Assembly (NCBI GenBank): GCA_016841675.1
Contig: JAENYQ010000024.1
Span: forward strand, 1 to 41,919
Direction: 5' to 3'
Origin: Desulfotomaculum sp.
Lineage (GTDB): Bacteria > Bacillota > Desulfotomaculia > Desulfotomaculales > Desulfallaceae
DNA: 41,919 bases
Made by a program: the position numbers and the translations under genes. Numbering within the stretch: the first letter of the stretch is position 1; each line of letters begins with the position of its first letter. The notes under the pieces were generated by a model. That model saw only the letters and a list, made by a program, of their open reading frames with translations. It was not told the origin of the DNA and made no database searches. This document shows positions 18,284 through 41,919 of this stretch, in pieces.

Positions 18284-18598
18284 TTAGTTACATATAAACT
18301 TATACAATTGTTATATGTTTAATGTAAGATGAAATAATTTAACATGGTTATACCGTTAACTCAGTAAGTGGTACAGCGTCGTGTCATTGCTATGAATACA
18401 ACGAAGTGAAAAACCTTGTCATTAAGCTGTCATTCTGAGCGCAGCGAAGAATCTTAAAGCCCAGATCCTTCGTTGCGCTCAGGATGACAACTCTCCCCCC
18501 CGCGTTGCACAATTGTTTACTAAAAATGCTCATCTCTCAATTTAATTAAAAGGTCGTTCGATAATTGATTTAAGGCGCTTTTTTTGATTAATATTTAG
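18284..18598. other. Intergenic, convergent gene ends
   Basis: No gene seen. The stretch holds the lead-in element at 18383-18405 and hairpin repeat copy 1 at 18429-18488 between convergent genes. Confidence 0.6.
18383..18488. repeat. Hairpin repeat family A, copy 1
   Basis: A lead-in, GTCATTGCTATGAATACAAC (from 18383), is followed at 18429-18488 by an imperfect palindrome beginning GTCATTCTGAGCGCAGCGAA and ending GCGCTCAGGATGAC. Copies occur at 19959-20019 and 38458-38517; the lead-in recurs at 38426 and, inverted, at 38-52. Confidence 0.85.
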
Positions 18599-19831: not shown

Positions 19832-20153
19832 ACTCAAGACCTCCGTTTCTTTCTTTCAATAAAATTAAATTACGATGGTGTTTATATCGAACATTATTAT
19901 GTGGTAGACACCATGCTGCTGTCGCAGCACCATCAGAAGGATGAAAATCTGTTGGATTGTCATTCCGAACGAAGTGAGGAATCTAGAACCTTAAGATCCT
20001 TCGCTGCGCACAGGATGACAAAACTCAAAGTTTATTTTCAGGGTAGTCAGTTAAATATATTGAACAAGCCTGCTTAACATTCCGGCCCCATCGAATTTGC
20101 AACCAGATAGTACCATTTAGTAACGGAAATAATGAAATAAAGTTGTACTCTTC
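19832..20153. other. Intergenic between ylbJ and yceD
   Basis: Divergent intergenic space with hairpin repeat copy 2 and, at its right edge, the yceD promoter. No coding signal. Confidence 0.6.
19959..20019. repeat. Hairpin repeat family A, copy 2
   Basis: GTCATTCCGAACGAAGTGAG at the left arm and CTGCGCACAGGATGAC at the right. This is a more diverged copy of the family at 18429 and 38458, and it lacks the lead-in element. Confidence 0.8.
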
Positions 20154-36510: not shown

Positions 36511-37296
36511 ATGACCGTTAAAATTGCAATTATCGGCGGCACCGGGGTGTACGACCCCAATATACTCTCAGATATCGGTGAGGAAACGGTGGAAACACCA
36601 TTTGGCCGCGTGAAGGTGAAAGTAGGCTCATACAAGGGCAAAAAAGTAGCTTTCATGGCCAGGCACGGCGAAGATCACTCGGTACCGCCGCACCTGGTGA
36701 ATTACCGGGCCAACATTTACGGATTGCGTTTGTTGGGCGTGAAAAATGTCTTTGCCACTGCCGCGGTGGGTTCCCTGAACATGGGGATGGAACCAGGTAA
36801 TTTTGTGTTTATGGATCAGTTCCTGGATTTTACCAAGTCCAGGCACCAGACTTTTGTGGAGCAGGGCGTGGTGCACCTGGATATGACCGACCCGTACTGT
36901 CCCCGCTTGCGGGGTGTACTGCGGGAGGCAGCGGAAAAAAACGGTCTGCGTTACCATAGCGCCGGTACATATGTGTGCGCCGAAGGCCCGCGTTTTGAAA
37001 CTCCGGCGGAAATCCGCATGTTCCGTCAACTGGGGGGGGATCTGGTGGGGATGACCAGCGTGCCCGAAGTTGTTCTGGCCAGGGAAGCCAAAATTTGCTA
37101 TGCTACTATTGCCATGGTTACAAACTTTGCTGCCGGTATCTCGAAAACCAAGCTCTCCCATCAGGAAGTGGTGGATATCATGAATGAAAACGTGCATAAC
37201 CTGAGGAAACTGGTGATGGGGTCCATCGACGACTTGGATGAAGACGCTCCCTGCGAATGTCGCGAACCACTTGAGGATCCTTCGGCGGTGGAATAG
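36511..37296 (+). CDS. mtnP: MTA/MTI phosphorylase family protein
   Basis: This 261-residue purine nucleoside phosphorylase-type protein splits a 5'-methylthio (or 5'-deoxy) nucleoside with phosphate to base plus sugar 1-phosphate. MTAP-family blocks are IIGGTGVYD, MARHGEDHSVPPHLVNYRANI, GPRFETPAEIRMF and GMTSVPEVVLAREA. At the purine-contacting site, where MTA-specific enzymes have two aspartates (TDYD in human), this protein has Asn205 and Ala207 (TNFA). Asn there is typical of enzymes that prefer 6-oxopurines, which suggests methylthioinosine phosphorylase activity. The ATG has ACGGAGG upstream. mtnA follows after 25 bases. Confidence 0.88.
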   Translation: MTVKIAIIGGTGVYDPNILSDIGEETVETPFGRVKVKVGSYKGKKVAFMARHGEDHSVPPHLVNYRANIYGLRLLGVKNVFATAAVGSLNMGMEPGNFVFMDQFLDFTKSRHQTFVEQGVVHLDMTDPYCPRLRGVLREAAEKNGLRYHSAGTYVCAEGPRFETPAEIRMFRQLGGDLVGMTSVPEVVLAREAKICYATIAMVTNFAAGISKTKLSHQEVVDIMNENVHNLRKLVMGSIDDLDEDAPCECREPLEDPSAVE

Positions 37297-37321: not shown

Positions 37322-38353
37322 TTGGATACTATGCGCTGGAATAACGGCTGTTTGGAAATACTTGATCAAACACTGCTGCCTGAAAAAACCGAGTATATTA
37401 ACTGCCGGGAAGTCCCTACTGTATGCGACGCTATCTACAGGCTTAGCGTGCGTGGCGCTCCGGCCATTGGTGCCGCTGCCGCTTATGGCCTGGCCCTGGG
37501 AGCGCGTGGAACTGAGGCCCCCAATAAAGGTCAGTTTATTGCCGCGGTGGAGAAAATCGCCTCTCAACTAAACGCCACCCGGCCCACGGCGGTAAATTTA
37601 AAATGGGCGCTGGACCGAATGCTGGGCCTGCTGCGCCAAAACGATACTGATGACGTTGCAGCGCTAAAGGAATTATTATTGAGTGAAGCCCACACTATAT
37701 ACCGGGAAGATTTAGAAAGCAACCGCCGTATGGGTGAATACGGTCAGACGCTGGTGCCGCAAAAAGCGGCGGTTCTAACCCATTGCAACGCCGGAGCCCT
37801 GGCTACGGCAGGTCTTGGTACCGCCCTTGGTGTCATCAGGGCGGCTCGCGATGCGGGTAAGGATGTCAGCGTGTTTGCAGATGAAACCAGGCCCCTGCTG
37901 CAGGGAGCCCGGTTGACCACCTGGGAGATGTTGCAGGAAGAAATTCCGGTAACCTTACTGACCGATAACATGGCCGGGTACCTAATGGCCCTGGGCATGG
38001 TAGACCTGGTTATCGTGGGTGCGGACCGCATCGCCGGCAACGGTGACGTGGCCAATAAAATAGGCACATACGGTGTGGCGGTGCTGGCCAGTGCGCACGG
38101 GATACCATTTTACGTGGCCGCACCCATGTCAACTATTGATTTTAATATTTCATCTGGTTTGGACATCCCCATTGAGGAAAGGGACGAGCGGGAAGTCACG
38201 CACTTTGCCGGGCGCAGGGTGGCACCAGAAGGGGTTAAAGTCTGGAACCCGGCCTTTGATGTTACCCCCGCCCGGTTGGTAAACGCCATTATTACCGACC
38301 GCGGTGTGGCTTACCCTCCATATAGTGAAACTTTGGCGGCACTAAACAAATGA
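37322..38353 (+). CDS. mtnA: Methylthioribose-1-phosphate isomerase
   Basis: MtnA converts methylthioribose 1-phosphate (and, promiscuously, 5-deoxyribose 1-phosphate) to the ribulose 1-phosphate form. The 343-residue protein of the eIF2B-like fold has RGAPAIGAAAAYGLALGA, the catalytic Cys155 in LTHCNAGALAT and Asp235 in VGADRIAGNGDVANKIGTY. It may start at TTG 37322 or ATG 37331. It forms an apparent operon with the phosphorylase gene and supplies the substrate of the aldolase encoded at 39959. Confidence 0.95.
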   Translation: MDTMRWNNGCLEILDQTLLPEKTEYINCREVPTVCDAIYRLSVRGAPAIGAAAAYGLALGARGTEAPNKGQFIAAVEKIASQLNATRPTAVNLKWALDRMLGLLRQNDTDDVAALKELLLSEAHTIYREDLESNRRMGEYGQTLVPQKAAVLTHCNAGALATAGLGTALGVIRAARDAGKDVSVFADETRPLLQGARLTTWEMLQEEIPVTLLTDNMAGYLMALGMVDLVIVGADRIAGNGDVANKIGTYGVAVLASAHGIPFYVAAPMSTIDFNISSGLDIPIEERDEREVTHFAGRRVAPEGVKVWNPAFDVTPARLVNAIITDRGVAYPPYSETLAALNK

Positions 38354-38690
38354 TTAAGATTATCAAGTAATTCTAAAAGAGCAGGGAACTGATAAAGTCA
38401 ATTAATATGCTCAATAGCCAAGATTGTCATTGCTATGAATACAACGAATCTGTCATTGTCATTCTGAGCGCAGCGAAGAATCTTAAAGACTAGATCCTTC
38501 GCTACGCTCAGGATGACAAGCTTAATCTTGACGAAGGTAGATTGTATTCATTTATCGTGATGCGGGTACGCATGGTAATTCTGAGCGTCTAAGCATTTAA
38601 AACCATAAGAGTTTCTTTATTGCAGTTAGCTTAAATCAGAATGACCCGAACCTAGACCTTTTCAGTGGTCTTCTAAAAGGGAGTGATTGT
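38354..38690. other. Intergenic between mtnA and ahcY-like gene
   Basis: About 340 bases with hairpin repeat family A copy 3 (38426-38517); nothing else identified. The repeat may split the SAM-recycling genes into two transcripts. Confidence 0.55.
38426..38517. repeat. Hairpin repeat family A, copy 3
   Basis: The lead-in GTCATTGCTATGAATACAAC starts at 38426 and the palindrome (GTCATTCTGAGCGCAGCGAA to CGCTCAGGATGAC) spans 38458-38517. Nearly identical to copy 1 at 18383-18488, 20 kb away, which suggests recent or maintained mobility. Confidence 0.85.
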
Positions 38691-39944
38691 TTGTCCAACT
38701 ATACTGTCCGGGACATCAACCTGCACCAGCAGGGACGGTTAAAAATTGACTGGGTGCGGGTGCACATGCCGGTGCTTAACGCAATCCGGGAAGAGTTTGA
38801 ACGGGAAAAACCGTTTCAGGGTTTGCGCATTGCCTTAAGTATACACCTGGAAGCAAAAACTGCCTACCTGGCTGAAGTACTTAGAGCAGGCGGGGCAGAT
38901 GTATCCGTCACCGGTTCCAACCCGCTGTCCACCCAGGACGATGTGGCGGCGGCACTGGCATATGCGGGCATGCAAGTTTACGCCTGGTATAACGCTTCAC
39001 CACAGGAATATAATGACCACCTGCACCTGACCCTGGGCAACCGGCCGCAAATCGTTATTGATGACGGTGGTGACTTGGTCCATCTTTTGCACACCGAACT
39101 GCAGCACCAAGCCGGCGAGGTCATCGGCGGGGCGGAGGAAACCACCACCGGGGTACTTCGTTTACGGGCTCTGGAAAAGGCGGGTAAACTGCTTTTCCCG
39201 ATGATTGCCGTAAATGATGCCCGCTGTAAGTACCTTTTTGATAACCGTTACGGCACCGGTGAGTCCGCATGGTCCGGCATCCTGCGCACCACCAACCTGG
39301 TAGTGGCGGGTAAGGTCGCCGTAGTTATGGGCTACGGTTGGTGTGGCAAAGGTGTGGCCATGCGGGCTAGGGGCTTGGGAGCCAATGTAATTGTCTGTGA
39401 AGTGGATCCGGTTAAAGCCGTCGAAGCCTACATGGACGGTTACCGGGTTATGCACAGCGTGGAGGCCGCCGCGCTGGGAGATATCTTTGTTACCGTTACC
39501 GGCTGTCGCGACCTGCTGAGAGAAAAACATTTCCGGCGCATGAAAGACGGGGCTATTATGGCTAACGCCGGCCACTTTGACGTAGAAATCAATATTCCGG
39601 AATTGGAAAAGGTCTCTGTATCACGCCGCACAGTGCGCAATAATATCGAAGAGTTTCTCCTCCCGGATGGCCGGCGTCTGTACCTGCTGGCCGAGGGGCG
39701 CTTGGTTAACCTGGCTGCGGGGGACGGACATCCGGCCGAAATTATGGATATGTCCTTTGCTCTACAAGCCCTAGCCGCGTTGCATATCGCGCGATACGAT
39801 GGGAAAATGGATCGAAAAGTATACTATGTGGCCCATGACATTGACCAACGGGTGGCCGAGTTGAAATTGAAATCACTAGGCATTGATATAGACCGCCTGT
39901 CTAATGAACAGTTTAGCTACATCAACGATTGGCAGTGTGAATAA
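38691..39944 (+). CDS. ahcY: SAH hydrolase family (SAH or SIH hydrolase)
   Basis: This 417-residue NAD-dependent hydrolase cleaves S-adenosylhomocysteine, or its deaminated form S-inosylhomocysteine, to homocysteine and nucleoside. Family blocks are [32 protein letters not shown] and the NAD motif GYGWCGKG. Where human SAHH has HMTVET, with Glu59 contacting the adenine amine, this protein has HLEAKT (His52, Glu54, Lys56); a lysine would fit a 6-oxo group better. It ends at NDWQCE without the C-terminal Lys/Tyr NAD-contacting tail of the eukaryotic type, as in the short Thermotoga/archaeal form. TTG start with GGGAG at 8 bases. Confidence 0.92.
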
Positions 39945-40764: not shown

Positions 40765-40805
40765 TAAGTCTAACCCCAAGGGAACTGAGGAGGTTGATTG
40801 GACAA

Positions 40806-41919
40806 GTGTCAAACCTGTTGATCAAGTGCATGGCCGTCTTGACCATGGACGGGGAAGCAGATATTATCCGAGATGGCGAGATTGCCATTAAAAACAATCA
40901 GATCTATCACGTGGGAACTGCGGGCTCGACTCCGGTGGATTTCAAACCAGATCAAATAATGGACCGTCCACGAATGGTAGCCATGCCGGGATTTGTAAAC
41001 TGCCATACCCACGCAGCCATGACCCTGTTTAGGGGGTATGCCGATGACCTGCCTCTAATGCAATGGCTAAATGAAAAAATATGGCCTTTGGAGGAACACC
41101 TAACCCCGGACCATATATACAAGGGCACTATGCTTAGCTGCGCTGAAATGATTAAAGGCGGGACAACTACCTTTACGGACATGTACTTTGCCATGGACCG
41201 AGTGGCTCAGGCCGTTGATGAATCCGGCCTGCGGGCAGTGCTGAGCCGCGGCATGGTAGGGCTTGGCCCTAACGCTGAAATAGCCATGGAAGAAAGCACT
41301 GCCTTTATTGAACAATGGCACGGTGGTGCCGGCGGACGTGTAACGGCTATGTTCGGACCCCACGCACCCTACACCTGCCCACCGGAATATCTGAAAAAGG
41401 TTATTGAACAAGCCGGCAAAATGAACGTGGGCATTCACATTCACCTGGCCGAAACTGAAGATGAAACAAGTGAAATATTAGAGAAGTACGGCCGTTCACC
41501 GGTTATTTTAATGGAAGAAACGGGGCTGTTTGAAATTCCGACGCTGGCTGCCCACTGTGTGCACCTGGATGACCGGGATATAGAAATATTGGCCCGCAAC
41601 CGGGTCGGCATTGCCCACAACCCGCAAAGCAACATGAAACTGGCCAGCGGCGTTGCCCCGATAACCAGGTTGAAAGAAGCCGGAGTACTAGTTGGGCTGG
41701 GAACCGACGGCGCTGCCAGCAATAATAATTTGGACATGATGGAGGAAATGCGGACCGCCGCCCTGCTGCAGAAAGTCAGTACCGGCCAAGCCACTGCGCT
41801 ACCAGCCCGGGAAGCGCTGCGTATGGCCACCGCCGACGGTGCATTGGCAGTGGGCCAGGGCGACCGGGTGGGTAAAATAAAGCCGGGCTGTTTGGCCGTT
41901 TTCATTTTACTGGACATGC
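40806..41919 (+). CDS. mtaD: MTA/SAH (5'-deoxyadenosine) deaminase, partial
   Basis: This amidohydrolase of the MtaD/DadD group deaminates 5'-methylthioadenosine, SAH or 5'-deoxyadenosine to the inosine forms. At least 371 codons are present; the 3' end lies beyond the window. Visible motifs are the first metal site GFVNCHTHAAMTLFRG, the helix DDLPLMQWLNEKIWPLE, GPHAPYTC, HIHLAETEDE, AAHCVHLD and the final aspartate in GLGTDGAASNNNLDMM. The start is taken as GTG 40806 (MSNLLIKC), 12 bases after AGGAGG; a TTG at 40794 abuts that site. It complements the phosphorylase and hydrolase genes upstream. Confidence 0.92.
   Translation, partial: MSNLLIKCMAVLTMDGEADIIRDGEIAIKNNQIYHVGTAGSTPVDFKPDQIMDRPRMVAMPGFVNCHTHAAMTLFRGYADDLPLMQWLNEKIWPLEEHLTPDHIYKGTMLSCAEMIKGGTTTFTDMYFAMDRVAQAVDESGLRAVLSRGMVGLGPNAEIAMEESTAFIEQWHGGAGGRVTAMFGPHAPYTCPPEYLKKVIEQAGKMNVGIHIHLAETEDETSEILEKYGRSPVILMEETGLFEIPTLAAHCVHLDDRDIEILARNRVGIAHNPQSNMKLASGVAPITRLKEAGVLVGLGTDGAASNNNLDMMEEMRTAALLQKVSTGQATALPAREALRMATADGALAVGQGDRVGKIKPGCLAVFILLDM

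Follow-up and report, generated by a model that had tools for sequence, protein, structure and literature searches.

Of the published pathways, the DHAP shunt with MtnP comes closest; it releases adenine (PMC10986504). The separate steps of the scheme considered here have been described in Methanocaldococcus and Pseudomonas (PMC6302742, PMC10978960). In M. jannaschii, MtiP, MtnA, DadD and the S-inosylhomocysteine hydrolase SIHH form a salvage set; MtiP has been called promiscuous (PMC6302742), and SIHH and DadD are treated in PMC10978960. Among the hydrolases assayed, the fingerprint HxExK goes with a preference for S-inosylhomocysteine and HxTxE with one for S-adenosylhomocysteine (SAH); it is the Lys that binds O6 of inosine (PMC10978960). 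The numbering of human PNP and the roles of its Glu201, Asn243 and His257 follow PMC2799393, PMC6128611 and PMC4308819; the mutation N243D raises the efficiency with adenosine about 4000-fold (PMC6128611), the double mutant E201Q:N243D takes adenosine analogues (PMC2799393), and therefore the Glu/Asn pair sets the choice between 6-oxo- and 6-aminopurines. The structure 3OZB, titled as the P. aeruginosa MTI phosphorylase (MTIP, PA3004) with hypoxanthine, reads QGPRLET...VVNPAAGKSAGIITMAEI.

The window, i.e., the whole stretch of 41,919 nucleotides of Desulfotomaculum sp. that was analysed, contains an operon with the following features.

36511..37296, + strand: predicted 6-oxopurine-type nucleoside phosphorylase on an MTAP-family body (261 aa; TIGR01694 and NF006599 above cut-off), with MTI, 5'-deoxyinosine and probably inosine as candidate substrates
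36997..36999, + strand: Glu163 codon, counterpart of human PNP Glu201 and of Ser178 in human MTAP
37120..37137, + strand: TNFAAG motif, residues 204-209, with the Asn205 codon (AAC) at 37123-37125
37159..37161, + strand: His217 codon, aligned to human MTAP Val233, PNP His257 and the Met of P. aeruginosa MTIP
37322..38353, + strand: mtnA, (methylthio/deoxy)ribose-1-phosphate isomerase (TIGR00512, 454.6 bits, cut-off 279)
38691..39944, + strand: predicted S-inosyl/S-adenosyl-homocysteine hydrolase of the HxExK (SIH-preferring) type (TIGR00936, 607 bits)
38844..38858, + strand: HLEAK fingerprint, hydrolase residues 52-56 (meaning from PMC10978960)
39959..40618, + strand: class II aldolase (PF00596, 188.5 bits), candidate for 5-deoxy- or methylthio-ribulose-1-phosphate
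40794..41919, + strand: predicted DadD/MtaD-type deaminase of MTA, 5'-deoxyadenosine and SAH (PF01979, 263.5 bits), ending at the contig edge

The phosphorylase, MtnA and the class II aldolase, clustered in the window, are common to this operon and the R. rubrum-type DHAP shunt with MtnP, but the operon adds the deaminase and the SIH-type hydrolase, and the base would leave as hypoxanthine. In the DHAP shunt, a nucleosidase together with a kinase can stand in for the phosphorylase. The enzymes are those of the M. jannaschii set, with presumably again a single promiscuous phosphorylase, a likeness drawn from the enzyme sets in the papers; in contrast to that set, the present one is bacterial and forms one operon conserved across the class. 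PA3004 (3OZB, NF006599) has, like the window protein, an MTAP-family body, Glu in [LF]ET and Asn with an AAG base loop, and it works after a deaminase, as we propose for the window enzyme. The latter differs in having His217 instead of Met and in belonging to a separate clade, and its operon additionally includes the SIH-type hydrolase and the aldolase.

It had been predicted originally that the phosphorylase carries TNFA, with Asn205 and Ala207, at the place of the TDYD of MTAP. HMMER alignments confirm this: T204-A207 lie within 37111-37140, and Asn205 falls where the first TDYD Asp is in human MTAP (1CB0), S. solfataricus MTAPII (2A8Y) and the enzymes of S. tokodaii (1V4N) and A. pernix (1WTA), being the counterpart of human MTAP Asp220 and of human PNP Asn243. 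The description was correct as to Asn205 and incomplete otherwise; the switches at E163 and H217 had been missed. The window protein has FET (E163) where the same MTAP structures have FST or FSS, so the Asp/Ser site for 6-aminopurines (TDYD with FST) is absent and the Glu/Asn pair for 6-oxopurines is present. Altogether, Ser178/Asp220/Val233 of human MTAP are replaced by Glu163/Asn205/His217, the counterparts of PNP Glu201, Asn243 and His257, and residues 146-220 align with the T. maritima PNP 1VMK without a gap over TN.AAGI...LSH.EV. In 3OZB, aligned through the gamma-proteobacterial relative L117, the residue opposite Asn205 is the Asn of VVNPAAG, and most of the 25 gamma-proteobacterial relatives resemble 3OZB, with Glu/Asn and Met at the 5' site. 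The place of the hydrophobic residue facing the 5'-methylthio group (Met in 3OZB) is taken by His217 in the window protein, although the Met-versus-His rule is not absolute: the gamma-proteobacterial member L128 also aligns His.

The idea of a base pocket of the 6-oxopurine type is thus supported, the E163/N205 pair being common to MTIP and PNPs. The doubt cast on an "MTA phosphorylase" label is justified as well: MTIP and PNPs have Asn, and every proven MTAP aligned has Asp, so Asn is not common among proven MTA-specific enzymes. The suggestion of an MTIP or a PNP stood as far as the 6-oxopurine type is concerned; a dedicated MTI phosphorylase is not secured, as H217 is the residue of PNP and not the Met of P. 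aeruginosa MTIP. Judging by the aligned residues, the base pocket is consistent with both MTIP and PNP; the 5' pocket bears more resemblance to that of PNP.

The body is a different matter. The phosphorylase scores 305.7 bits against TIGR01694 (MTAP; cut-off 274.85) and 244.3 bits against NF006599 (MTIP; cut-off 223), and is below the cut-offs of the PNP models NF006054 (147.7 versus 218) and TIGR01697 (130.6 versus 197.1). It is 36-44% identical to MTAPs and shares the fold and most of the sequence with the human and archaeal ones (1CB0, 2A8Y, 1WTA; 42-44%); human and other trimeric PNPs, which share the counterparts of Glu201, Asn243 and His257, are only 20-31% identical. The AlphaFold model (mean pLDDT 90.4) gives Z of 33-37 to MTAPs and about 25 to PNPs; the pocket geometry is taken from the alignment. 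As read from the sequence, the protein joins a base pocket of the PNP type to a body of the MTAP type.

The neighbouring hydrolase appears to show the same switch from the adenine to the hypoxanthine form. It combines the HxExK fingerprint with a deaminase in the same operon. Among solved chains, the nearest to it are P. furiosus SAHH and 7R3A, the latter bearing the deposited name "S-inosyl-L-homocysteine hydrolase". The deaminase reading frame, incomplete at the contig end, matches amidohydrolase relatives in NCBIfam, none above cut-off, and is the sole copy in the window's genome at E<=1e-70. No specific NCBIfam equivalog above its cut-off was found for the aldolase.

From these residues and the gene content we infer the following catalytic steps, the use of inosine included. 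The deaminase would convert MTA, 5'-deoxyadenosine and SAH into the corresponding inosine forms, and the operon supports the original view that it supplies the substrate, as a prediction. The HxExK hydrolase would cleave S-inosylhomocysteine into homocysteine and inosine, and the phosphorylase would convert MTI, 5'-deoxyinosine and probably inosine into hypoxanthine and the 1-phosphosugar. MtnA would isomerise the deoxy and methylthio sugar phosphates, which the class II aldolase would split into DHAP and an aldehyde, i.e., a deaminated version of the DHAP shunt; Hpt would convert hypoxanthine to IMP.

The window's genome (99.98% complete) encodes Hpt and Xpt, a spermidine synthase, which is a source of MTA, one SAHH, and one PF01048 protein, which is the phosphorylase; searches of this genome for apt, a nucleoside hydrolase or another PNP-superfamily protein found none. 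Since there is no other PNP-superfamily enzyme, the simplest expectation is that the same phosphorylase cleaves the inosine released by the hydrolase. The main alternative handler of inosine is a YlmD-type PF02578 protein of this genome, which could handle MTA too.

The relatives show the same picture. In public genomes, 80 relatives split cleanly into FET...TN and F[SG][TS]...[TS]D types. The former comprises 28 of them in addition to the window; mtnA adjoins in all, and every readable hydrolase has HLE[AG]K. None of the remaining relatives, with F[SG][TS] and [TS]D, has a hydrolase or a deaminase nearby. Within the bacterial class of the window, the locus was fetched for 103 genomes; an N-type copy is present in 102 of these operon loci and mtnA is adjacent in 100. 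The hydrolase is readable in 97 class operons; 92 of them have only the N-type phosphorylase together with an HxExK hydrolase, and the deaminase is in the locus in 89 of these 92. DadD is found in 102 of 113 class genomes. Asn205 is invariant in 14/14 diverse close relatives and Glu163 in set A1; the class-wide conservation rules out Asn205 as a product of chance or a sequencing slip. As a separate observation, the loci of family f16 (e.g., L204, L206, L208, L222 and L243) keep mtnA but have no class II aldolase in the operon.

The other five of the 97 operons (genomes G071 and G074-G077, loci L171 and L172-L175, respectively) provide a natural control. The hydrolase in them has HxTxE, as SAH-type enzymes do, and the operon includes an additional phosphorylase with FST/TDYD (in G074 this copy ends at the contig edge before the TDYD site). 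In all five genomes and in the fragment G084 (locus L290) apt lies directly beside the TDYD gene, and the DadD match is missing in five of the six (G074-G077 and G084), G071 having one. Thus, the adenine-type hydrolase, the adenine-type phosphorylase and adenine salvage occur together, and the deaminase is usually lost. The genomes represent few lineages (one genus and G071, G084 being a fragment) and possibly a single acquisition, so that Fisher p-values overstate their independence. In general, apt is but a partial marker for the release of adenine; it is found away from the operon in 18 of 98 N-only genomes. Both D-type paralogues scanned (L171 and L172) are recognised as MTAP by their scores and do not reach the cut-off for MTIP. 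In the tree the TDYD paralogues form one long-branched clade, which suggests that they were acquired from outside. These acquired paralogues also have His at position 217, which weakens this residue as proof of the use of inosine or a 5'-OH.

We believe that the most probable function is that of a nucleoside phosphorylase for 6-oxopurines, built on an MTAP-family scaffold, to which the deaminase supplies MTI, 5'-deoxyinosine and probably inosine. A generalist acting on all three is more likely than a dedicated MTI phosphorylase because H217 is PNP-like, the hydrolase should release inosine, and the genome has no other PNP-superfamily enzyme.

It is unlikely, in our opinion, that the protein is a PNP for inosine and guanosine built on an MTAP body; in that case MTA would be removed by some other route, and the link to the operon would be secondary. 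P. furiosus PNP is reportedly an enzyme of this kind, all three discriminating positions are PNP-like, and the N-type gene is kept beside the D-type MTAP in the DadD-less G074-G077, where MTI should not form. However, the adjacent mtnA of nearly all class loci needs MTR-1-P or 5-deoxyribose-1-phosphate, and many class genomes already own a separate PNP-family protein besides the operon phosphorylase.

We regard as still more doubtful a dedicated methylthioinosine phosphorylase similar to P. aeruginosa PA3004, with low activity on inosine. The score above the NF006599 cut-off, the Glu/Asn pair as in 3OZB, the adjacent mtnA and the spermidine synthase in the genome agree with it; on the other hand, the 5'-site residue is the His of PNPs and not Met, the expected inosine would find neither another PNP-superfamily enzyme nor a nucleoside hydrolase, and the window clade and the gamma-proteobacterial MTIP clade do not group in the tree.

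An ordinary MTA phosphorylase with a neutral Asp/Asn difference, although it is the TIGR01694 label and MTAPs are the solved proteins closest in sequence and in fold, is highly improbable and was rejected, considering that the model also passes the gamma-proteobacterial MTIP and does not discriminate, that both base-contact residues changed together, and that the adenine-form genomes have a further MTAP, with TDYD, next to apt.

The tree was built with PNPs as the outgroup and with the specificity columns removed. The change from Glu/Asn to Ser/Asp is a single one on it; the S/D clade has support of 99/95, the gamma-proteobacterial MTIPs are its sister (93/88), and the window clade is outside both. 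The 6-oxopurine type may be the older state of the MTAP family, the rooting being tentative in view of the long outgroup branch.

Returning to the generalist 6-oxopurine phosphorylase, we presume that this bacterial class probably recycles the by-products of S-adenosylmethionine only after deamination of the adenine. A broader proposal, for which our belief and our doubt are about equal, is that the class sends all of these by-products (SAH, MTA and 5'-deoxyadenosine) through inosine forms by means of one operon and one generalist phosphorylase, adenine never being released; that a subset switched the operon as a whole to the adenine form by co-acquiring the SAH-type hydrolase, the TDYD MTAP and apt; and that the 6-oxopurine type is older, the true MTAPs originating from a single later switch. 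In the searchable literature, which leaves out most subscription journals, neither the class-wide bacterial operon nor its adenine-form variant seems to have been described.

The observation has a bearing on annotation. TIGR01694 passes the N-type enzymes, the gamma-proteobacterial MTIP (L117, 282.5 versus 274.85) and the D-type MTAPs (L171 and L172) alike and cannot separate 6-oxo from 6-amino enzymes. Its cut-off is passed in 104 of 113 class genomes; it would name the gene MTA phosphorylase in nearly all of them, and adenine would enter metabolic models where hypoxanthine is expected. The hypoxanthine-form and adenine-form operons are a clean natural pair: as the hydrolase changes its specificity residues, the complement of phosphorylases changes with it; the pair allows side-by-side tests of the specificity rules for MTAP/MTIP and SAHH/SIHH.

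Three minor observations can be added. In the small archaeal genomes with loci L158 and L167, a second PF01048-like gene with the motifs YET/LET and DNYANGI adjoins the TDYD gene on the same strand. A riboswitch of the operon was sought, with no Rfam match at the gathering score in the window. Finally, a dispersed imperfect palindrome (CATTCTGAGCGCAGCGAAGAATCT...) occurs in the window as two full copies and one half copy (38460-38515, 18431-18486 and 19994-20017), with 0 expected, and one of the copies lies within the 337 nt that separate mtnA from the hydrolase gene.
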